From a virus: a DNA stretch of 23,358 nt. A program made the position numbers and the translations under genes. The stretch is from IMG/VR virus record IMGVR_UViG_3300046449_000164, positions 1 through 23,358 of that record; one strand, given 5' to 3'. A model generated the notes under the pieces. That model did no database searches, was not told the DNA's origin, and saw only the letters and a program-made list of their open reading frames with translations. Shown piece after piece: positions 1-14,098 of the stretch. The stretch's first letter is position 1, and each line of letters opens with the position of its first letter.

Positions 1-857
1 CTTGCATCTAAATTCTTTACAGCTGTTTTTGCTGAAAGGATTGCAGATCGATGTGCCTTATTTGTTTGTGCTGATGCAGCCATTTTGGAATCGATACGTG
101 CAAACGGGATACCTTCTAAACTACGCCTTAGTCCAGTCATCTGGATCTTATTTGCATCAACGAGGTCAACCCAGTCGAGATAGGCACCCTCAAGTATGGA
201 TTTACCTGTTGGGTCATTATTAGATGCAACTGTTCGGAATAGAAGCATGCGATTTCGTGGTATCTTAATCTCTGCCCCATTTCGTCTTACACGTTGGGTA
301 ATACCAGTCAAACCTAGATAGCCCATCCCAGCTGGTGTATTCCATTTTTCAATCGTGGTTGGGTCGATTGGAAGAAAGCTTCTCCAACCAATTTTACCAT
401 CATGATATTTGCTATGGAAATGCGGGTCGGTATCATACCCTGTTCTTGCTTTGAACTGCGGCACCATAATCTTGAAACCCATGTCAATCATATCAAGGAT
501 CTCTCCAATCACATCGCTCATAGGTGTCTGCATATCAGCAACACATTCTCTCAAGAAGATTGCACGCTTTTCTGCCCTACCTCTATTTGGGTCTAATGGA
601 TTTTCCTTGATCGTTATTCGTGGTGTTTGGCACAAAGATTTAAATGCAAGAAGAATACCACTTATTGTTGAGTTGGTTTTCATCTGATTAAATGTGTTCA
701 CCTTTCCACTGATTGACTTAAGGTTTGGTAGTACCTGACGTTCATCTAAGTACAGTGTATAATCTACGTACCCATCTGATTCACCCACATCTGTAGGTGT
801 GTCACCCTGTTTCAGTTCGGGAGCTTTGATGAGTGGGTCTAACGGATTTTCTGGCAT
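1..857 (-). CDS. Portal protein (partial, C-terminus beyond left edge)
   Basis: This leftward open frame starts at 857 and runs off the left edge with 285 codons visible and no stop. The product begins MPENPLDPLIKAPELKQG. Portal proteins form the dodecameric ring at the capsid vertex through which DNA is packaged and to which the terminase docks. The visible sequence has the character of portals of long-tailed phages: an acidic N-terminus, a conserved block reading SFLPIDPTTIEKW, then IPRNRMLLFRT and NNDPTGKSILEGAYLDWVDL, followed by a helical stretch. The gene lies directly downstream of the large terminase on the same strand, the usual order. I chose 857 because GGGAGGAG lies just upstream. 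In-frame ATGs at 887 and 869 would add 10 or 4 residues but have weaker ribosome binding sites. The family call rests on recognition of these blocks plus context. Confidence 0.75.
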   Translation of the reverse strand, partial: MPENPLDPLIKAPELKQGDTPTDVGESDGYVDYTLYLDERQVLPNLKSISGKVNTFNQMKTNSTISGILLAFKSLCQTPRITIKENPLDPNRGRAEKRAIFLRECVADMQTPMSDVIGEILDMIDMGFKIMVPQFKARTGYDTDPHFHSKYHDGKIGWRSFLPIDPTTIEKWNTPAGMGYLGLTGITQRVRRNGAEIKIPRNRMLLFRTVASNNDPTGKSILEGAYLDWVDLVDANKIQMTGLRRSLEGIPFARIDSKMAASAQTNKAHRSAILSAKTAVKNLDA

Positions 858-944
858 TACTCCTCCCATTGTTTGTTTGTTTGGCATTTATTTAATACAG
901 AGCACCTTTTCTCTATCTGGTGATTTGTCGATCCTTATCGAGCC

Positions 945-975
945 GGACTTGATGGGCATCACCACCATCAAGCCC
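945..975 (-). other. Stem-loop between terminase and portal genes
   Basis: In the leftward transcript the arms 975-965 and 955-945 form an 11-bp stem with one G-U pair and a 9-nt loop; the core CTTGATGG/CCATCAAG is perfect. No run of U follows, so it is not a standard intrinsic terminator. It could be an RNA processing or stability element in the packaging operon. Only the structure is seen; the role is not known. Confidence 0.5.
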
Positions 976-1021
976 CAGAGGTTTGCCTATTTAACGTGTG
1001 GATGCCTCAACCACCACATAA

Positions 1022-2590
1022 TCAAATGTAGATATCAAATTCATCTTCAATCTCTACATCAATCGAATACATGTTGTAAGCCCCTTCTGCATCCTCTACA
1101 AGGTCAGCATATAGGTCTGTAAGTACAGCCTTCTTTTCTGATGTTGGTGAGGTAAATGCTTCTGGAACACCTGTCTCATCAAATAGCCCACGAGAGCTTG
1201 AAGGGAAGAGGTATGTTATTGCCCACACAAGTGCATCCATTCTATCTGGAGACTTTTTGTGAACCTGCGGGTTATACTCACACATCTGTGCCTCTAGATC
1301 TCTATGTATTCCAACGTGGTAGATTCTTCCACGTTCATACAGTAAACCTATTGGCTCTGCCCTTGCTTTCTTGCCACGAGATGCCCACACCTTCTTAACA
1401 ACAACCATTGGGTCTATGTTAAAGATAGCTGCTGGGATAAAGTCACCACCATTGTTGGTTTCAACTACGAGACATTCTGCTCGATACTGGTGATAGAGCT
1501 TCACAATTTTTTCGTATATCTCTGAGATCTTTCCTCTACGAGATGCATCCTTGAAAACAAACCCCTTATCCCCACGCCTTCCAGCAACACAGATACCTGT
1601 CTCATCAGAATTGATATCCTCAACAACGTTGGGATCTACACTGATTACAATTTGGTCCATACTATCAATGAGCTTTCTCATTCTGAGGTTGTACTCATCA
1701 GGGTCTTGGTCAAACGTGTCTAGCTCAACCCGCTTGATATCTTCTAGTGAGAATATTGCTCCTAGGTTTTCATCAAGGATCATCCCTAAAACTTCTTGGT
1801 TGTAGAGTGTTGTACCCTCACCAAGTTTCACATCATCAATAAATGATTGTGGAAGTGCATAGTTGTCAAACGTTGTTCCTGTGTGGAAACGTATCTTACT
1901 ACCATCTTTCTTCGATTGTGTGTGTAATTCTTTTAGTGTTCTGATCGGTTTTGGTGATGTCGTGATGGTGTACTTTGGGTGCTTTCCAGCACGTAATGCC
2001 ATCTTTGTCATCTTCCAAATGTCATCATCCCCTCCAGTAAACTTGAAGAAGCAGAACTCATCAGCCCAAACATAATGGAAGTTCTCACCACGTACCCTAT
2101 CACCATTCTCTGAGGAGAATAATTTTGCAGTTGCACCATTTGGCCAAGTAAGTGAGCCTTCCGACTTATTATACTTTGGCTTAAATCCACGTGGTGATAG
2201 TTGCATGATACCAGAGGCACCCTCAACCATATTTGTCCGGCCCATACCAAATGTTGGTGCCAGTAGTCCAATACGACAATCAGGGTGTTGCATTGCAAAC
2301 TCAATGGCTGCTGGTGCCCCTGCCCATGTCTTACCATAAGCACGACCACAACACCAGATTGCACCATTCCAGTCTGGAGAGTCAAAATCATCCCACAACT
2401 GGTCATCTCTGATCATTACACGATAGTCTTGTCCTATGTACCGGAGGATCTCTGCATATCTATCTGGGAATGCACCTTCTAGTTTTCCAAGGAACTCAGC
2501 CCTCTTCTCATTATCAGGTTCCATTATGAGATTCTTACGAATCCACCTAGCCTGTTTTAGGGTATACGGGTGTGTGTATGTTCTTGACAT
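1022..2590 (-). CDS. terL: Terminase large subunit (packaging ATPase and nuclease)
   Basis: This 522-aa protein is the motor that translocates phage DNA into the prohead and cuts the concatemer. The N-terminal ATPase has a Walker A variant CGRAYGKT (residues 81-88), a Walker B strand YVWADE (173-178, D177/E178) and a coupling motif TTSPKP (210-215). The C-terminal RNase H-fold nuclease shows the acidic residues D319 (ISVDPN), E377 (VVETNN) and D452 (DRMDALVWA). All domains are present and the length is normal for the family. The start has a GGGGGG ribosome binding site 3 nt upstream, and the gene lies only 8 nt downstream of the preceding gene, so the two are probably co-transcribed. The leftward 31-bp promoter-like repeat at 3489-3519 is the likely source of late transcription. 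Confidence 0.95.
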   Translation of the reverse strand: MSRTYTHPYTLKQARWIRKNLIMEPDNEKRAEFLGKLEGAFPDRYAEILRYIGQDYRVMIRDDQLWDDFDSPDWNGAIWCCGRAYGKTWAGAPAAIEFAMQHPDCRIGLLAPTFGMGRTNMVEGASGIMQLSPRGFKPKYNKSEGSLTWPNGATAKLFSSENGDRVRGENFHYVWADEFCFFKFTGGDDDIWKMTKMALRAGKHPKYTITTSPKPIRTLKELHTQSKKDGSKIRFHTGTTFDNYALPQSFIDDVKLGEGTTLYNQEVLGMILDENLGAIFSLEDIKRVELDTFDQDPDEYNLRMRKLIDSMDQIVISVDPNVVEDINSDETGICVAGRRGDKGFVFKDASRRGKISEIYEKIVKLYHQYRAECLVVETNNGGDFIPAAIFNIDPMVVVKKVWASRGKKARAEPIGLLYERGRIYHVGIHRDLEAQMCEYNPQVHKKSPDRMDALVWAITYLFPSSSRGLFDETGVPEAFTSPTSEKKAVLTDLYADLVEDAEGAYNMYSIDVEIEDEFDIYI

Positions 2591-2598
2591 GTACCCCC

Positions 2599-3165
2599 CT
2601 ATCGCTTAGGTGAAACATTACTAAGCGTTGACATTAGTGCCTGCATTTCTTCTTCAACTGATCCAACATAATCACTAGCTTCCTCTTCCACCATTCGTGG
2701 TTTTGAGATTTCGATTTGTGCTAGTGTCTTCATCGCCTCTTGCTTCTCTTTTTTAGATGAGTCAGCACTGTTGATGATATCCATTGCAATGTATGTTGGT
2801 GTAGTCATTTGGTGGGCATATAATCCACGGTTGATAGCATACGCAATCATCTGCTTTAGGTATTGTGGACTAACCGAGTCTTTATAAGTACTCGTGATAT
2901 CTTCACTAATCTCTGCTGCCTTCAACTTCTTTGTTTTTTCAGACGAGCATTGACCATCTAGATCATCAGCTTCCGTGTTGAGCTTCTCTGCACGAGCCAT
3001 GAATGCTGATGCCTGTTTCCTCAACTCCTTAGCCTTATCAAGTTTTTCTTCCTTAAGCTTCTTGTTACTTCTACGAGTCTCTAAGGACTTCGCTCTAGCA
3101 GCTTCAGCCTTTTCAGGTGACATACTTGCTAGTCCTCTCTTGGAGGTGTTTGTCTTTTCCGTCAT
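2599..3165 (-). CDS. Probable terminase small subunit or packaging-associated protein
   Basis: A 188-aa, highly charged protein with no motif I can name with certainty. Residues about 15-70 are rich in Lys, Glu and Ala and look like a long helix or coiled coil (SPEKAEAARAKSLETRRSNK). The middle part (SPQYLKQMIAYAINRGLYAH) looks globular, and the tail is acidic. Its place immediately upstream of the large terminase, 8 nt away on the same strand, is the normal place of the small terminase, which binds phage DNA and hands it to the large subunit. The start at 3165 is preferred because GGGGGAAG lies just upstream; an in-frame ATG at 3189 would add 8 residues but has no good site and lies inside a hairpin. 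The function is inferred from position and composition. Confidence 0.5.
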   Translation of the reverse strand: MTEKTNTSKRGLASMSPEKAEAARAKSLETRRSNKKLKEEKLDKAKELRKQASAFMARAEKLNTEADDLDGQCSSEKTKKLKAAEISEDITSTYKDSVSPQYLKQMIAYAINRGLYAHQMTTPTYIAMDIINSADSSKKEKQEAMKTLAQIEISKPRMVEEEASDYVGSVEEEMQALMSTLSNVSPKR

Positions 3166-3183
3166 ACTTCCCCCAGAAAGGTT

Positions 3184-3228
3184 GTGCACCCATTACTTTG
3201 TTATTAACTATTTGTGTAAGGGGTGCAC
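3184..3228 (-). other. Strong stem-loop just upstream of the packaging operon
   Basis: Two 13-nt arms (3184-3196 and 3216-3228) pair in 12 of 13 positions and are bounded by the palindrome GTGCAC; the loop is 19 nt. It ends 19 nt upstream of the ATG at 3165, just outside the ribosome binding site. It has no U-tract in the leftward direction. Likely roles are mRNA 5'-end stabilisation, RNase III processing or translational control, none of which can be decided from sequence. Confidence 0.55.
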
Positions 3229-3395
3229 TATTATATAAATTAGCTCCTCGGCATAAGCAACAAGGAGCATTTTAATGTAGAGAGCTACACTACCCCGACT
3301 CAGTACACTCCATGATTTCATATTTGTGAGACTCTAGCTGAGAGTCTATGAAGTGTTTCCAAGGGCAAAGGGTATAACCATTCAGAATATGTTGT

Positions 3396-3418
3396 GTTTC
3401 CTCCTCTTAGGGTGGTTT
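3396..3418 (-). promoter_or_regulatory. Possible variant phage promoter, leftward
   Basis: Read leftward, this site contains CACCCTAAGAGGAGGAA. It matches the promoter-like repeat at 3489-3519 in its downstream half: CCCTAAGA followed by GA and a G-rich stretch, 12 of 17 positions. The upstream half does not match. It lies in the same non-coding leader and points the same way. It may be a weak or decayed copy, or a chance match. Confidence 0.25.
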
Positions 3419-3488
3419 GCACATATATCTGTGTGATGGATAAAAGTGACCAGCATATGGCTTATTTGCCAGTATAACTTTTGTAATC

Positions 3489-3519
3489 TCCATCGTCTTA
3501 GGGACACTTAAGGAATATC
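3489..3519 (-). promoter_or_regulatory. Phage RNA polymerase promoter candidate, leftward copy
   Basis: These 31 bp, read leftward, are identical to 7487-7517 read rightward. The core is TTAAGTGTCCCTAAGACG. T7-class polymerases recognise conserved sites of about 20-23 bp ending in an AT-rich melting region followed by a purine start; here TCCCTAA followed by GACGA fits, resembling the T3 form CACTAAAGGGA. Both copies lie in non-coding DNA and point at the first gene of an operon. The window encodes the matching kind of polymerase. The repeat is seen; its promoter role is inferred, with start predicted near 3497. Confidence 0.75.
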
Positions 3520-3623
3520 CATATAAAACAGTGTGTTACATATATGGAGTTTTGTCCTATAAATCACCTATTGATTCTATGCATATCCTGTATAAATGAT
3601 AGTGTAGATAGCGGTACTACCAC

Positions 3624-3664
3624 AAGATCTATAAGATCTTAGATCTTTTGATCTTAGATCTTTT
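3624..3664. repeat. Cluster of five GATC sites in an imperfect palindrome
   Basis: GATC begins at 3626, 3635, 3642, 3650 and 3657, a spacing of 9, 7, 8 and 7 bp. Part of the cluster forms a 13-bp stem with one mismatch and a TTTT loop. GATC is the classic target of Dam methylases, and a Dam-like methylase is encoded at 20028-20888. Clustered GATC sites are known at some bacterial origins. The hairpin is too AT-rich to be a convincing terminator. Confidence 0.6.
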
Positions 3665-3816
3665 ACTGGATAAATTAGTTAATAATGATATGTGGATATG
3701 ACAACCAAGTATTAGGTAGATGTATTGTGATGTGATGATAGTTAGGTGTAACAGTTAGACAGGATAGTTGTGTTATTTAAATCAGACATTCACTAAGATC
3801 ATATACTACTAATCAC

Positions 3817-3878
3817 GGGTCGATATAACGTATCAACGATACAATACAAATGACCCACACTACTTACTATAGTAGTGT
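3817..3878. other. Two adjacent stem-loops
   Basis: The first (3817-3856) has an outer stem GGGTC/GACCC enclosing GTATC-AAC-GATAC. The second (3857-3878) has a perfect 8-bp stem ACACTACT/AGTAGTGT with a 6-nt loop. They abut with no gap. No U-tract follows in either direction. They do not fold as a tRNA. The function is unknown. Confidence 0.45.
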
Positions 3879-4011
3879 ATGTAATATCTGCGTGGTGTCT
3901 TTAGTGGTTAGTGGTTGTTTGGTGTTAGAAAATCTACACGTAGGACAGGCAAGGGTTTGGAGGTTTTTGTACTGAAAGTTGCACAGTTAAGTTGGATATT
4001 CTATTTATAAT

Positions 4012-4032
4012 TAAATCAATAACTTACGTCAC
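4012..4032 (-). repeat. 21-bp element, second copy, leftward
   Basis: Read leftward this matches 7462-7482 read rightward at 19 of 21 positions (core GTTATTGATTTA). At 7462 the element sits 4 bp upstream of the 31-bp promoter-like repeat. Here it is followed within about 15 bp by sequence only loosely like that repeat (GAATATCC, then TTAACTGTG). It may be a regulator binding site or the remains of a third promoter. Confidence 0.4.
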
Positions 4033-4102
4033 TCCAAAAGTGCGAATAGTGAGGTGGTGATTTAAGGTCATATTTTTAACCAAAAACCACCACACATCTA
4101 GC

Positions 4103-4585
4103 CTATTTGGTTGGCTTGTTTAATGCAAGGTTGCTATCAGTATATGAGGTGATTTGGTTATCCATTTTTTCAAGGGTATTCTCTTGGAAACTGAAACCAC
4201 GACCATCATGTGTTTCCTTATCTTTCTCATCAATAGCAACCACAGTTTGCGTTGCATTCAACGCTTCAGATGTTCGCTCAATAACCTGAAGTGTGTGGAA
4301 CAACACTCGCAGGCGATTTCCACTATGTACCGATGATACAAGACCTGAACGCTCTTCATTATTAAGCGGTTGACATGGTGCCAACATTTGTTGAATTACA
4401 GCACAGAAGGATTCATCATTATCACTTTCAAGATCTGATAGTGAAACATATTGTTCTTTCTTAACAAACTGGCCAACATCTGGGATATCTACAGGGAACA
4501 TGAAGTTCGCTTCAAGCATCTCAGCTGGTGTCCATACAAGTTTATTCGGAAATGCTGTTTCATTGGTTGTTGTTGTTTTAGTCAT
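4103..4585 (-). CDS. Hypothetical protein downstream of RNA polymerase
   Basis: A 160-aa protein I do not recognise. It begins with a Thr-rich stretch (MTKTTTTNET), then a segment with VWTPAEMLEANFMFPVDIP, a central helical-looking region (RLRVLFHTLQVIERTSEALN) and a polar tail. No signal peptide, membrane segment or zinc motif is visible. AGAGGT lies about 10 nt upstream of the ATG. It follows the RNA polymerase gene on the same strand after 75 nt, so it is probably transcribed with it from the host-type promoter at 7354-7382. A weak second promoter (TTGACT, 15 bp, TATAAG) can be read in the gap. An early gene acting on the host or on the switch to phage transcription would fit the position, but that is inference. 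Confidence 0.7.
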   Translation of the reverse strand: MTKTTTTNETAFPNKLVWTPAEMLEANFMFPVDIPDVGQFVKKEQYVSLSDLESDNDESFCAVIQQMLAPCQPLNNEERSGLVSSVHSGNRLRVLFHTLQVIERTSEALNATQTVVAIDEKDKETHDGRGFSFQENTLEKMDNQITSYTDSNLALNKPTK

Positions 4586-4625
4586 TCGGATTGGTACCTC
4601 TAAGTTAAGTTGGGTGTATCTTATA

Positions 4626-4655
4626 GCAGTTGGGTTGTTAAGTCAACCCAACTAC
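4626..4655 (-). other. Stem-loop between RNA polymerase and downstream gene
   Basis: Arms of 12 nt (core AGTTGGGTTG/CAACCCAACT perfect, extended by a G-U and a G-C pair) enclose a 6-nt loop ACTTAA. It starts just after the polymerase stop codon. There is no U-tract, so a simple intrinsic terminator is unlikely; an RNase III-type processing site or attenuator is possible. The loop side overlaps TTGACT of a weak sigma-70-like promoter reading left. Confidence 0.5.
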
Positions 4656-4660
4656 ACGGC

Positions 4661-7321
4661 TTATTTAAAACAAAATTCTGAATTTAACATTTCATCAGGG
4701 TTCCACTTACCTCTCTTAATCCCAAACTCCTCTGGGGACATCAACTCTCCAAGCATGTCAACATGGAAGTCATCACCAAACACATCTACCAAATGGGTTT
4801 CAAGTTGTGACCTAAAACCTAGGTAGAGATTCTGTAACACAGGGCCACCAAATAGGGAGATAAACTCCTCACGTATAATCCTGTTGAATAATACTGAGTG
4901 GCAACAATGTGCCCCCAGAGAATCATGTACCATCCACAGATTATCAATACCTTCAGTCTTACACCGTGCTGACACAGATACAATAACAGATGCATCAAAA
5001 CTGTGGACGATATCAGGAGCAACGCCTGACTTCATCTTGGCTATATCAAGTTCAGGGATTAACCGACCCTTATGGTCCTTCACCAACTTTGGTACTAACA
5101 CCGTGAATTTCTTTATCTCACCACTAGCACCGAATGGAACACGAAGCAACAGTGCCTTTTCCTTAGGTTTACTCATAGTAACATGAAAACCAATGGGTGT
5201 CTCCCACTTAACAGGTAGATTGTAGCTACCAAGCACACCAGCTACGTAGACAAAGTATTCCATCACAAGCCCAGCACCACGGATCACATTGTTGATAGAG
5301 TCATAAATAAGGCCACCCATTAGTGTTGATGGTGATACGTCTCCATCACGAAACATATCTTCCCAACCCCACTTCACGATACGCTCACCACAGTGTTTTA
5401 TATTTCCGTATCTTGTACCTGAATAGAACTTCACCATTACAGGCTTTTTTACCAAGTCACGGATAACCAAACAATACCGATGTTGTTCCACCTCAGAGAG
5501 CCTCAGGTACACGCTAAGGAATATATCCTCAACATCCACACCAGTAGCCCCAAGTTCACGGATAATGTCCTGAGATGTATTAGAGAGGATGTCCTCCTGT
5601 TCATCGGCCAACACACGGTTTATGGCACCAATTATATCTACCCGACCAAGCCAGTCCTGAGATAGTGGCTGATCAAATGTTTCTATCAACGAGCGTATTA
5701 CCTCTGCGGCACATGCCATGTAGAGATCCTGTACATCCCCGTCTAGCAAGTTTGTGTGCATCGCACCAATTTCATCAAGTGTGATTGCTGAGAGTATTTG
5801 TGCTCCAGAACAAGAAGCATCATTCTGGTCACACAGTCGGTGTAGGAAATCAAAATCCCCCTCACCGTGAGACTCCTTATATGATAACCAATCAACCCAC
5901 TCTTTGATCGCAACAAGGAACTGAAACGGTTTTGATGCGCTCATCCATTCCTTATTGTTTATTGGGTCTAATACACACTCACGCATCCACTGTGTCTCTC
6001 GTTCAACCCACTCAGCACCCTTCCCCCTTCTAAGCTTATCAGTCTTTACACCATCACCAGAATCTTTACCCCAGTGGTTACACACAGCCTTCTGTATAGC
6101 GTACACACCATCAGCACTTCCAATAGGAAGGGAGACAGCGAACTCAACAACAGCCTTCTGGAAATCAGAACCCTGTAAGTTTATACCAGTCATAGCTGAT
6201 GGGTATACACGACAACGGGTGTCGAGTGATGGTGGCCAGAACAACTCATCAAAGTGTTGTACCTCTTCCACAACGTCTAACATGGTCTGGTATGAACGAT
6301 CAAGAGATTTCTTACCCTCAACCTCTTTTAGGTGGAGATTTTTCTTATCCTTCCACCGAAAGAATGCCTTTCTCTTTGCTACAGAATCATCATCCTGATG
6401 TACCATAACATCAGTGACCGTCTCTTTTCCAGTCTTCTTGTTAACCTTAACCCCCTCCACTTTCTCCCAGAGGTATGCATCAGCTTCTCGGTCAACAGGG
6501 CATGGCTCATCGAACTCACCCTTTTCAACCATAAAAACCTTTTCAAGCTCCTTCGGTCTGATACCCTTTAACTGGGTACACACTCCAAAGATAAACTTAT
6601 TAACACGATACGGTGTATTCTGGATTTGGTTAAGGCCAGAATACAGGGTATCACCTCTTGGCTCTATGTGATCTGGGAGTCGTTTCACTAGAGGCTTGAA
6701 CTTTTTAGCCTGCTTAGATAGGTACCCACCACCAGACATAGCTGCCCACCCATCTGGCTTGTGCACCATAGGCATCATGCGTGGTCTTATGATATTGAAC
6801 ATAGCATGGTTATCCTCAACCATCTTCTCAAAAGCCTTGGTTGGTGAAATCATATGGGTTGTCTTTGTCTTTGACTCCCTTTTCAGACTAACACGGAATA
6901 ACTTAGGTAGTGCAAGAAGGACAAGATCAACGAGCTTAATACCTGCTGCAACTTTTAACTTAAGTATTGACTCATCAGCACTGTGTACATCTTCAGCCCG
7001 TTCATTTGCAAGGAGCAACCCAGCACCTGCAACTGCTGCAACAGAAACAACTGATGACTCACCAGACTGAGATAGGTAACCAACCACAGACTTGACACCA
7101 ATAGCTGCAACCTCATCAACTGACAACCCTTTGGTCAGCTTAAAGAATGGTGCTCTCTGTCTTTCAGTAGCTGTTATATACAACTCAATACGTGTTGATG
7201 TTTCAGAAATAAGGTTAACCAGCAAATCACAAGACTCATTCTCCCCAAGAAGTTCAAGTGTATCAGCTAATGATGTTCGCTGCATATCTTGCTTCTCTCT
7301 GGCTAATTGAATATCTCGCAT
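4661..7321 (-). CDS. Single-subunit DNA-dependent RNA polymerase, T7 type
   Basis: This 886-aa protein matches the length of T7 RNA polymerase (883 aa) and carries its catalytic motifs. Motif A is CDQNDASCSGAQILSA, with D501 in the place of T7 D537. Motif B has R621, K625 and Y633, spaced as T7 R627, K631 and Y639. Motif C is WMVHDSLG, with D800 matching T7 D812. Other shared blocks are DTRCRVYPSAM and NLQGSD (about 367-385), APDIVHSFDAS (768-778), and the C-terminal SEFCFK resembling the T7 FAFA foot. The enzyme should transcribe phage genes from its own promoters; the 31-bp repeat is the best candidate. GAGGGAG lies about 10 nt upstream of the start. A near-consensus sigma-70 promoter at 7354-7382 should drive it early. 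No motif is missing or broken. Confidence 0.96.
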   Translation of the reverse strand: MRDIQLAREKQDMQRTSLADTLELLGENESCDLLVNLISETSTRIELYITATERQRAPFFKLTKGLSVDEVAAIGVKSVVGYLSQSGESSVVSVAAVAGAGLLLANERAEDVHSADESILKLKVAAGIKLVDLVLLALPKLFRVSLKRESKTKTTHMISPTKAFEKMVEDNHAMFNIIRPRMMPMVHKPDGWAAMSGGGYLSKQAKKFKPLVKRLPDHIEPRGDTLYSGLNQIQNTPYRVNKFIFGVCTQLKGIRPKELEKVFMVEKGEFDEPCPVDREADAYLWEKVEGVKVNKKTGKETVTDVMVHQDDDSVAKRKAFFRWKDKKNLHLKEVEGKKSLDRSYQTMLDVVEEVQHFDELFWPPSLDTRCRVYPSAMTGINLQGSDFQKAVVEFAVSLPIGSADGVYAIQKAVCNHWGKDSGDGVKTDKLRRGKGAEWVERETQWMRECVLDPINNKEWMSASKPFQFLVAIKEWVDWLSYKESHGEGDFDFLHRLCDQNDASCSGAQILSAITLDEIGAMHTNLLDGDVQDLYMACAAEVIRSLIETFDQPLSQDWLGRVDIIGAINRVLADEQEDILSNTSQDIIRELGATGVDVEDIFLSVYLRLSEVEQHRYCLVIRDLVKKPVMVKFYSGTRYGNIKHCGERIVKWGWEDMFRDGDVSPSTLMGGLIYDSINNVIRGAGLVMEYFVYVAGVLGSYNLPVKWETPIGFHVTMSKPKEKALLLRVPFGASGEIKKFTVLVPKLVKDHKGRLIPELDIAKMKSGVAPDIVHSFDASVIVSVSARCKTEGIDNLWMVHDSLGAHCCHSVLFNRIIREEFISLFGGPVLQNLYLGFRSQLETHLVDVFGDDFHVDMLGELMSPEEFGIKRGKWNPDEMLNSEFCFK

Positions 7322-7353
7322 GTTTAATATACTCCCTCTAATTCGATGGGAGG

Positions 7354-7382
7354 ATTATGTACTAACTATATACCTTTGTCAA
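7354..7382 (-). promoter_or_regulatory. Host sigma-70-type promoter for the RNA polymerase gene
   Basis: Read leftward: TTGACA (7382-7377, perfect -35), a 17-bp spacer, and CATAAT (7359-7354, one mismatch from TATAAT). The expected start near 7347 gives a short leader to the ATG at 7321. This is as close to consensus as sigma-70 sites usually get. It implies that host polymerase makes the phage RNA polymerase early in infection. Confidence 0.75.
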
Positions 7383-7461
7383 ATATAATTGATATTTTAT
7401 TCACAGCTATAAAGGTATAAACTATTAAGTGTGCAGTTAGGTGAATCCACTAAAATAACAG

Positions 7462-7482
7462 GTGATGTATGTTATTGATTTA
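7462..7482 (+). repeat. 21-bp element, copy next to rightward promoter
   Basis: It matches 4032-4012 (reverse strand) at 19 of 21 positions and ends 4 bp before the 31-bp promoter-like repeat. The AT-rich TTATTGATTTA part could be an upstream promoter element or a binding site. Confidence 0.4.
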
Positions 7483-7486
7483 TAAT

Positions 7487-7517
7487 GATATTCCTTAAGT
7501 GTCCCTAAGACGATGGA
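7487..7517 (+). promoter_or_regulatory. Phage RNA polymerase promoter candidate, rightward copy
   Basis: This is the exact 31-bp counterpart of 3519-3489 in the opposite orientation. It lies 39 bp upstream of the first replication gene; a predicted start at G7509 gives a 48-nt leader. No other exact copy was noticed in the window. It would place replication genes and packaging genes under the same phage polymerase. Confidence 0.75.
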
Positions 7518-7556
7518 ATAAACCAACCTAATTAACCTAACTGAGGGAGGAATTGT

Positions 7557-9443
7557 ATGCTCATAAGCACTGGGGATGAAACCAAATTAACCCCGTCTCA
7601 AGCCTCTCGAAGAACTAGGAGGTCATCAAGAAAACAACGTGGTGAGATTGTAAAGAATATGCCATGCCCAAAGTGTAGAGAGGGTGGTGGTGATAGTTCT
7701 GGAAACCACCTAATGGTATTCTCATCAGGGAATGGTTATTGCCAGCGATGTGATAAGTCATTCAGTAAGGAGAGTGTTGATGGGTTTTCTGCTGGCACAG
7801 TTGCGTCACAAAGACGAACATACCAAAACCATAATACCTCCGGTCCGTATAAAAAGAAGCTCACCATGGAAGATATGGATCACCTTGGATACATTGGTGA
7901 CCGACATCGTGGTATTACACCTGAGACAGATCGACACTTTGGTATACGGACAGAAATAAACCCAACCAATGCAACACCTATTGCACGATACTACCCTTAC
8001 TACGTAGAAGATACACCGTATGGGTTTAAAAACAGGCAACTGCCGAAAGTGTGGGACACAGATATTGGTACAATCAAGGGCACTGACTTGTTTGGATGGC
8101 ACCTCTGTACTGGGAAGCGTCACACACTAATTATTGTAGAGGGTGAGGAAGATTGTGCTATCGGTTGGCAGATGTGGAAAGCTATGAATAAGCGCTCACC
8201 ATCAAGACGGATACAGAAACAAAACCCCCACATAGTATCACTACCAAATGGTGCCAAGGGTGCACAAAAGATTTTATTACACCACAGCCTAGAACTAGAG
8301 AAATATGAAAAAATAATCTGGATGGGAGATAACTACACTATTGATGCAGAAGGTGCACTTGCACTCGAAGCGGCAGTACAAGTTCTCGGTGTTGATAAAT
8401 TATTCGTTGCTGAATACAATGATAGAAGAAAAGATCTTTGTGATGTGTGGAAGGCAGAAGAAACCGCAGAAGATGCAATAAACGCATTCTCTGATATGTA
8501 CTTCAATGCCAAGAAATACCAACCAGCTGATATCATCAGTGGTGAAGATGTCTCACTTGAAGAGATAGAACAGGCCGTTGTGAAGGGGTATGATCTTCCG
8601 TTCGAGTCCATAAACGAAATGATACAAGGGCTTCGTCTTTATGAGCATACTCTGATATTTTCCGGTGCAGGTATGGGTAAGTCCACACTATGTCGAGCTA
8701 TAGGTCACTGGATGAATACAGAGCACAACTGGATGGTTGGTAATATTTATCTTGAAGAAAAGAATACGAAAACCATGCAAGGTTATATTGCCTATGACAA
8801 TGAAGTCGCACTTAACCTGTATAGAAAGAACTTTGACTCAATACCAAAAGAACAGCGAGAGGCTTCCAAGAAGAACGTTGTTGATAAAATGTTTTTCCTA
8901 AACCACAACGGGTGTATTGATCCTGATATTCTGATGAATAAGATACGATTCCTGTATAATAAGGGGTGTAAATTAATCATCCTTGATCACATATCCATGG
9001 CGGTAACAGGATCAGATGACGAACGAAAAGATATTGACAGCCTTATGGAAAAGATCTATCAATTTTGTGAGCACAACCCCGTTCATGTACTTTCTGTTGT
9101 CCACCTAAACCGAGACTCAAAGCGAGACTTTACCCGTGGTGCAGAAATCACTGCTAATAACTTACGTGGGTCTGCTGGCCTTTTGCAGATGGTGTGGAAC
9201 GCAATTGCACTTGAAGGTGATAACCAACATGATGAACATTCTAATACAAGGTTTGCACGATTCTTAAAGTGCAGAGAGACTGGAGAGGTTGGGCTTTGTG
9301 AAGGGGCATATCTCTATGATAAACAAACAGGTCACTTTAACTATAGCAAACATACTGGTCGTGATGTGATTGAGCAGTCATTTGAAAAGCAGGTACCGAG
9401 CATGGGAGGTGGGGATGGAAAGTACAACAACAAAGCTACCTAG
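7557..9443 (+). CDS. Bifunctional DNA primase-helicase, T7 gp4 type
   Basis: A 628-aa protein combining primase and replicative helicase. Residues 37-65 form a zinc-binding domain (CPKC and CQRC, four cysteines) that reads primer sites. A TOPRIM domain follows, with VEGEED (194-199) and IIWMGDN (253-259); its usual DxD pattern is not clear here. The C-terminal RecA-like helicase has Walker A SGAGMGKST (369-377), Walker B KLIILDH (472-478) and a following VVHLNRDSKRDFTRG block typical of DnaB/gp4 helicases. It is about 65 aa longer than T7 gp4, partly from an N-terminal Arg/Lys-rich extension. The start has GAGGGAGG 6 nt upstream. It is the first gene of the rightward replication operon, after the promoter at 7487-7517, and overlaps the next gene by 29 nt. 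Confidence 0.93.
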   Translation: MLISTGDETKLTPSQASRRTRRSSRKQRGEIVKNMPCPKCREGGGDSSGNHLMVFSSGNGYCQRCDKSFSKESVDGFSAGTVASQRRTYQNHNTSGPYKKKLTMEDMDHLGYIGDRHRGITPETDRHFGIRTEINPTNATPIARYYPYYVEDTPYGFKNRQLPKVWDTDIGTIKGTDLFGWHLCTGKRHTLIIVEGEEDCAIGWQMWKAMNKRSPSRRIQKQNPHIVSLPNGAKGAQKILLHHSLELEKYEKIIWMGDNYTIDAEGALALEAAVQVLGVDKLFVAEYNDRRKDLCDVWKAEETAEDAINAFSDMYFNAKKYQPADIISGEDVSLEEIEQAVVKGYDLPFESINEMIQGLRLYEHTLIFSGAGMGKSTLCRAIGHWMNTEHNWMVGNIYLEEKNTKTMQGYIAYDNEVALNLYRKNFDSIPKEQREASKKNVVDKMFFLNHNGCIDPDILMNKIRFLYNKGCKLIILDHISMAVTGSDDERKDIDSLMEKIYQFCEHNPVHVLSVVHLNRDSKRDFTRGAEITANNLRGSAGLLQMVWNAIALEGDNQHDEHSNTRFARFLKCRETGEVGLCEGAYLYDKQTGHFNYSKHTGRDVIEQSFEKQVPSMGGGDGKYNNKAT

Positions 9444-13269: not shown

Positions 13270-14098
13270 AAATAACATTGTGGTGCTACATGGTGACATG
13301 TAGTAGAAAACCTTCTTAATTGCTGGAATGCTTACCTAGGCAAAACAACTATTGTCGATAGATAAAAGTTGCAAGCTAGTAGAAGTTAATCAGCAGCGAG
13401 GAGATAGATATGAAAGTACTCTACGGGTATAAGATATTGGAAGATGGTACGGTTTTAAGTAAAAGATTCGGCACACCACTTAGTTGGTGTGATAATGGGA
13501 AGGGCTATATGATTAGTGCTATTTCCATTAATGGGGTAAGAAAAGCTGTATCCCACCACATCCTAGTAGCTAAAGCTTACCACGGAGAATGTCCTGAGGG
13601 TTATGAGGTTGGTCATATAGATGACAACAGAAGAAATAACCACCCAAGTAATTTGGAATATGTTACAAAATCAGAAAATAACCAACAGAGTTGGGATAAC
13701 AGGAATAGAAGTGCCACAGGCGTAGAAAATTCCAACTGTAAAATCACGGAAGATCAGGTAAGGGAGATTTGCATCTCATTACAAGATCAGAAGGGTTGTA
13801 ATATATCCAAGTTGTCAAGAGATTTTAAAATCGAGAGAGGGACGATCCAAGCCATCAAATGTAGGCGGCAGTGGATACACATCTCACAAGATTATATATT
13901 TATCTAAACGTTCACAGACTATCGAAAGGCAGCAACAGCTGAACCGAGTAGAGTACGGCCCGAGTGGGTGCCTCACGGCTTAAATGGAAATTGAAGGGAT
14001 CTCAAGTGAGATCATAATATAGTCGCATTCTCCTAGAAATAGGGGGCAGCACATAATTAGTGCGGGGTAGGAGATAACGTTCTTACCTGAAGATAATG
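13270..14098 (+). ncRNA. Group I self-splicing intron in the DNA polymerase gene
   Basis: This 829-nt group I intron has all the core elements. P1: exon end TACCAT (13264-13269) pairs with internal guide GTGGTG (13280-13285), with the required U-G pair at the splice site. P10: CATT (13276-13279) pairs with exon 2 GATG. P2: CTACATG-GTGA-CATGTAG (13286-13303). P element AATTGCTGGAA (13318-13328) and Q element AATCAGCAGC (13388-13397). R element GTTCACAGACTA (13910-13921) and S element ATAATATAGTCG (14014-14025), forming P7. P8-side hairpin GATCTC-AAGT-GAGATC precedes S; a GAAA-loop hairpin (CTCCTA/TAGGGG) follows. The intron ends in G14098. The HNH gene sits between Q and R, that is in the P6 region. 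Insertion is phase 0, between His and Asp codons. Confidence 0.93.
13410..13907 (+). CDS. Intron-encoded HNH homing endonuclease
   Basis: A 165-aa protein encoded inside the group I intron. The HNH core runs from HHILVAKAYHG (49-59) through VGHIDDNRRNNHPSNLEYV (67-85), with H49/H50, H69, D71/D72 and N76/N77/N81 as candidate metal and catalytic residues. The C-terminal part (about 130-155, ISKLSRDFKIERGTIQAIK) looks like a helix-turn-helix for DNA recognition, as in other phage HNH intron enzymes. Such enzymes cut intron-less alleles so the intron is copied in. GAGGAG lies about 7 nt upstream of the ATG. The stop at 13905-13907 lies 2 nt before the R element, so the gene fills the P6 loop without harming the catalytic core. 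It seems intact, so the intron may still be mobile. Confidence 0.9.
   Translation: MKVLYGYKILEDGTVLSKRFGTPLSWCDNGKGYMISAISINGVRKAVSHHILVAKAYHGECPEGYEVGHIDDNRRNNHPSNLEYVTKSENNQQSWDNRNRSATGVENSNCKITEDQVREICISLQDQKGCNISKLSRDFKIERGTIQAIKCRRQWIHISQDYIFI

Follow-up and report, generated by a model that had tools for sequence, protein, structure and literature searches.

The promoter of phage T7 RNA polymerase consists of TAATACGACTCACTATA followed by the start GGG. The specificity loop of this enzyme reads promoter positions -11 to -7, with N748 contacting -10 and -11, R756 contacting -9, and Q758 contacting -8 (PMC5937735). The promoter of the psychrophilic phage VSW-3, TTAATTGGGCCACCTATA followed by GTA, was predicted from its location and recurrence and then confirmed by 5' RACE, and polymerases of this type have been treated as a property of short-tailed phages (PMC9624206). 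Siphoviruses very rarely carry a polymerase gene, according to the accessible part of the report on Shewanella phage KASIA, which discusses the polymerase with no cognate promoter named (PMC8541194). A literature search, for which some of the sources were accessible in part, found no promoter described for the polymerases of KASIA or Colwellia phage 9A, and an earlier mention in the 9A genome paper is possible.

The DNA analysed here (the window, 23,358 bp) is an entire source record and a fragment of a phage genome. It is part of a phage related to 9A (Franklinbayvirus) and KASIA, both of which encode a T7-type RNA polymerase, and its own polymerase belongs to the same clade. A 31-bp repeat in divergent orientation had been proposed as the promoter of the phage's polymerase. 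Judging from the sequence comparisons below, we hold it very probable that the repeat is this promoter and that it serves both arms of the genome.

Results

The two copies of the repeat, GATATTCCTTAAGTGTCCCTAAGACGATGGA, match at 31 of 31 positions when one is read directly as the reverse complement of the other (Table 1). Neither is overlapped by an open reading frame of at least 50 aa, and the claimed identity, divergent orientation and non-coding location are thus all borne out. When the arms were lengthened to 53 bp, they were 85% complementary, so exact identity ends at about the 31-bp limits. With up to three mismatches allowed, the 18-bp core has no third site in the window, and the search that the original prediction had called for gave no copies scattered inside genes. 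The core pair appeared in none of 100 dinucleotide shuffles of the window. Because the window is a fragment, to which this copy count applies, more copies may exist.

An exact 16-mer scan of IMG/VR with the motif gave one in-gene match in an unrelated contig (L005), which was judged to be chance, and otherwise only a contig that was counted as the same phage. This contig (L003/L004, 8.6 kb) shares 8,197 bp with the window at 100% identity; L004 (IMGVR_UViG_3300045789_000692, 8,628 bp) matches window positions 1-8197 and continues 431 bp leftward into the portal gene. A cluster of AGATCT/AAGATC repeats was also seen at window positions 3625-3664, in the non-coding DNA that separates the polymerase operon from the leftward promoter copy.

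The gene layout is as originally described, with the RNA polymerase gene between the copies, primase/helicase to the right and the terminases to the left. The polymerase additionally gave a profile match to the solved T7 RNA polymerase, and the residue numbers of its hairpin were counted from the T7 profile alignment and a family alignment. An AlphaFold model of the polymerase from four sequences was too poor (mean pLDDT 48) and was left out of fold searches. The first gene of the left arm has no PHROG or Pfam match, and its name is therefore given by position.

Table 1. Positions of the predicted promoters, genes and hairpins in the window
Feature	Position	Strand	Basis or details
Terminase large subunit	1022..2590	-	Pfam Terminase_6N/6C, PHROG 2; 71% identical to 9A terminase
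Small-terminase-like gene, first of the left arm	2599..3189	-	49% identity to the gene immediately 5' of the terminase in 9A
Conserved hairpin in the predicted leftward leader	3243..3268	-	Lower stem covaries in four distinct sequences, 40/40 cells paired
Leftward promoter copy (predicted)	3489..3519	-	Predicted +1 3494; toward the terminase genes
Gene of unassigned function, directly 3' of the polymerase gene	4103..4585	-	34% identity over 120 aa to a 9A gene in the same place
T7-type single-subunit RNA polymerase, 886 aa	4661..7321	-	PHROG 414, E 2.7e-132; Pfam RNA_pol PF00940, E 1.9e-42
Polymerase stretch aligned with the T7 specificity hairpin, about residues 721-749	5075..5161	-	T7 profile and family alignments
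Sigma70-type promoter of the polymerase gene (predicted), TTGACA-N17-CATAAT	7354..7382	-	11/12 consensus bases; consensus match only
Rightward promoter copy (predicted)	7487..7517	+	TTAA 7495-7498, GAT 7512-7514, predicted +1 7512; toward the primase/helicase gene
Primase/helicase, first gene of the right arm	7557..9443	+	PHROG 239, E 3.2e-138

Rfam gave no match in the window at gathering scores, and no tRNA was found there. At 13275-14096, a group I intron carrying an HNH endonuclease gene (13410-13907) seems to interrupt the DNA polymerase gene of the window; the Rfam group I intron family RF00028 matched at 13788-14046 with E 2.4e-5, under its gathering score. According to the accessible part of its report, the DNA polymerase gene of KASIA contains an HNH-bearing intron (PMC8541194).

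Relatives were collected from IMG/VR (L013, L014, L015, L024 and L025; L014 is the 75-kb G001) and from a GTDB MAG contig (L023). Since L013 and G001 share one motif version, they were counted as one lineage, and the six lineages are the window, 9A, KASIA, G001/L013, L023 and L024. The window polymerase is about 48-51% identical to others of the 9A/KASIA clade and about 26% identical to those of the next cultured phages. 9A and KASIA resemble the window in gene order, in the polymerase (about 50% identical), in the terminase (71% for 9A) and in carrying a motif version of their own in the two corresponding gaps, but they differ from it in the middle of the motif. The genes of L023 (CAKZOO010000059.1, 75,105 bp) follow a 9A-like order, and its polymerase and that of the window are about 54% identical; L023 lies in a MAG labelled Flavobacteriaceae and is probably a misbinned phage contig.

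Each of the five other lineages was found to carry its own version of the motif in the gaps before the primase and terminase genes, facing outward and nearly absent elsewhere. The general form is TTAA-N13-GAT, with N14 in L023. When 16 sites from the six lineages were aligned on GAT, this triplet was present in every one, and the upstream TTAA was present throughout except in one 9A copy. The middle is near-constant inside one genome and varies from lineage to lineage, with TTAA and GAT kept. From the end of the motif to the primase start there are 40-53 nt across lineages. The primase gap of L015 carries the KASIA version, and that of L025 the L024 version.

TTAA-N13-GAT alone is too short as a search pattern, with tens of matches per genome, and thus only pairs with a common middle were counted. 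For each genome, the best ungapped outward 23-mer pair between the two non-coding gaps was scored against 300 dinucleotide shuffles. The best pair was this motif in all six lineages, and its score was reached by two shuffles for KASIA, one for L024 and none for the other four. The KASIA and L024 pairs, each taken alone, are marginal against shuffles; for the predicted promoters, the agreement among lineages in place, geometry and orientation is the stronger argument. Both L023 and L024 were discovered after the rule was set, and both obey it.

Phage 9A has one copy of its own motif ahead of the primase gene and three, in the opposite orientation, ahead of the terminase genes. Its whole genome (105 kb) contains only five sites within 6 mismatches of 22, all of them intergenic and in the sense direction. 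The fifth (HQ317390.1, 28290-28311, minus strand) lies within the tail operon, some 50 nt ahead of COPG_00047, and has 3 mismatches and CTAA for TTAA; it may be an internal promoter of lower strength for late genes. In each of G001/L013, KASIA, L024 and L023, the gaps before the primase and terminase genes hold two or three copies of a motif specific to the lineage. The predicted starts are 61345 (plus strand) and 57391, 57460, 57600 and 28292 (minus strand) in 9A, and 59955 (plus strand) and 53257 (minus strand) in KASIA. A 4-mismatch match at position 53477 of G001 is in a gene and antisense and is probably due to chance. When the 9A motif was used as a query against KASIA, the matches were in-gene or antisense, and they were dropped because KASIA's own pair fits better.

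The polymerases of KASIA and L024 are 89% identical outside the 29-column hairpin stretch and 63% identical inside it, which places the hairpin in the lowest 0.7% of equal-length segments. Aligned to the T7 profile, the equivalent of T7 N748 differs between the two (D to K), and so does the equivalent of R746 (K to R). Four positions, -11, -10, -9 and -7 (counting the G of GAT as +1), distinguish KASIA from L024 in both promoter copies, and the close flanks of the promoters are mostly shared. Of two polymerase pairs compared, co-change of the specificity region and the loop was therefore clear in this one, whereas the 9A/L023 pair showed no excess change in the hairpin; the link between motif and enzyme thus comes from KASIA and L024. 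We consider it fairly likely that the lineages represent six natural polymerase/promoter pairs that are built on the single layout TTAA-N13-GAT, differ in the sequence recognised and are probably mutually orthogonal, and that specificity has switched between close relatives through changes centred on the hairpin, with the promoters of both arms following.

No copy of the motif lies ahead of the polymerase gene in that gene's own direction. The gene is situated between two predicted promoters that face away from it, so neither would directly yield its sense transcript. A candidate promoter of the form TTGACA-N16/17 was found before the polymerase gene in all six lineages, at the place of the sigma70-type candidate in Table 1.

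The predicted leftward transcript has a leader of about 300 nt, and this leader contains a conserved hairpin with an 8-bp stem, a 2-nt bulge, and a short upper stem and loop. The upper part is conserved, and four pairs of the lower stem are changed on both sides. The hairpin was also found ahead of the small-terminase-like gene in 9A, KASIA (53095, minus strand), L023 (13882, plus strand) and L024 (12409, plus strand), and it had no Rfam match at gathering scores. It is possibly a packaging or translation signal, and its covariation agrees with transcription of that strand from upstream of the hairpin. In KASIA (MZ568826.1 near 53138; L007 26615-27352), KASIA_p090 is annotated to start 5' of the hairpin. 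From its sequence, the true start looks like a later ATG after GGAGG (MAEEVSTPRRSRRGF), and the KASIA leader would then equal those of the other lineages in length.

Discussion

The prediction of two promoter copies is based on the identical 31-bp pair and on the place, orientation and geometry shared with five other lineages. The proposal that a motif of the phage polymerase heads both arms gained support from sequence in these lineages, where it recurs at the same two places, and from the joint change of motif and hairpin between KASIA and L024. Under this proposal, host RNA polymerase would first transcribe the phage polymerase gene from the sigma70-type promoter, and the phage enzyme would then bind both copies. 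TTAA at -17 to -14 would act as the upstream AT-rich element, the lineage-specific stretch at about -13 to -7 would be read by the specificity hairpin, and an AT-rich stretch near -5 to -3 would melt. RNA would begin at the invariant G of GAT, with the rightward copy driving the replication arm and the leftward copy the packaging and structural arm. We infer the binding, the initiation, the exact +1 and the temporal order (host polymerase, phage polymerase, both arms) from the sequences.

The start site is the one part of the original prediction that we would correct. It had been placed at the G at 7509 and 3497, as in the T3 promoter, where TAAA is followed by GGGAGA. Taken alone, the window does look like a T3 start at this point (TAA followed by GACGA), but the base there varies among lineages: the window has G, 9A, G001 and L024 have T, and KASIA has either of the two. 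The GAT three bases downstream is invariant in all 16 sites, so +1 is likelier at 7512 and 3494. The KASIA/L024 switch falls at -11 to -7 only if GAT supplies +1, and this choice also puts TTAA at -17 to -14. TAAT of the T7 promoter occupies the same place, and its spacing (TAAT-N13-G) equals that of TTAA-N13-GAT. A true promoter starting at 7509 and 3497 is, therefore, unlikely.

The motif could instead be the site of a phage activator that steers host RNA polymerase to middle or late promoters, with the phage polymerase using other sites. T4 MotA is an activator of this kind, directing host RNA polymerase. The conserved small gene of unassigned function that follows the polymerase gene could suit such a role, and the 9A motif includes TATTAT, which resembles a -10 box. 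A TATAAT-like box at a fixed place is found in 9A only; at that position the window has TAAGAC, and KASIA and L024 have CAATGT, CAAGGT or CATTGT. Further, the promoter differences between KASIA and L024 accompany changes in the polymerase hairpin, and no second repeated intergenic motif was found that could serve the phage polymerase. Together, these points make an activator site highly improbable. Even less credible is that the repeat is a replication origin, a packaging site or a recombination site and no promoter at all, although one copy adjoins the terminase genes and the other adjoins the primase gene. The orientation is fixed toward the genes, the distance to the primase start is constant, the middle varies by lineage with the layout staying the same, and 9A has three copies before its packaging operon and one in its tail operon. 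In addition, KASIA packages by long direct terminal repeats, and these lack the sites, as far as the accessible part of its report goes (PMC8541194).

If the motifs are promoters of the phage polymerase, they supply sequences that can be tested with a clade of T7-type enzymes from long-tailed phages, for which we found no promoter described before. Bacterial hosts from cold water or a mine mat have served to culture two phages of this clade. KASIA and L024 would show how promoter specificity switches in nature, much as T7 and T3 do, and the other lineages are a source of candidate polymerase/promoter pairs for RNA synthesis, orthogonal and possibly cold-active. The arrangement also suggests a transcription plan for Franklinbayvirus-like phages, in which a central polymerase gene is accompanied by one outward promoter set per arm.

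By their geometry and the homologous polymerase, the motifs are predicted T7-class promoters. They form a motif of about 20 bp that is repeated in intergenic DNA, in the sense direction and ahead of operons, at 16 sites in six lineages. They also have the T7 layout and spacing, with an upstream AT-rich element, a specificity region, a melting region (less clearly AT-rich in the window and L023) and a purine at +1. Like the T7 and T3 promoters, they are paired with a homologous single-subunit polymerase, keep the spacing from AT-rich element to purine start, vary by lineage at the middle positions that the loop reads, and occur as intergenic sense copies. Those of the 9A group differ in sequence and start with GAT rather than GGG. 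From 2 to 5 copies were found per genome, in two divergent sets around the polymerase gene, and the carriers are long-tailed phages of about 75-105 kb. The VSW-3 promoter is the nearest experimentally mapped promoter in layout that we found; it shares TTAA upstream, 14 bases to a G start and few intergenic copies, but not the middle sequence. What is new would thus be the sequence family, the low copy number, the divergent arrangement and the long-tailed carriers of a promoter whose T7-class kind is already known.
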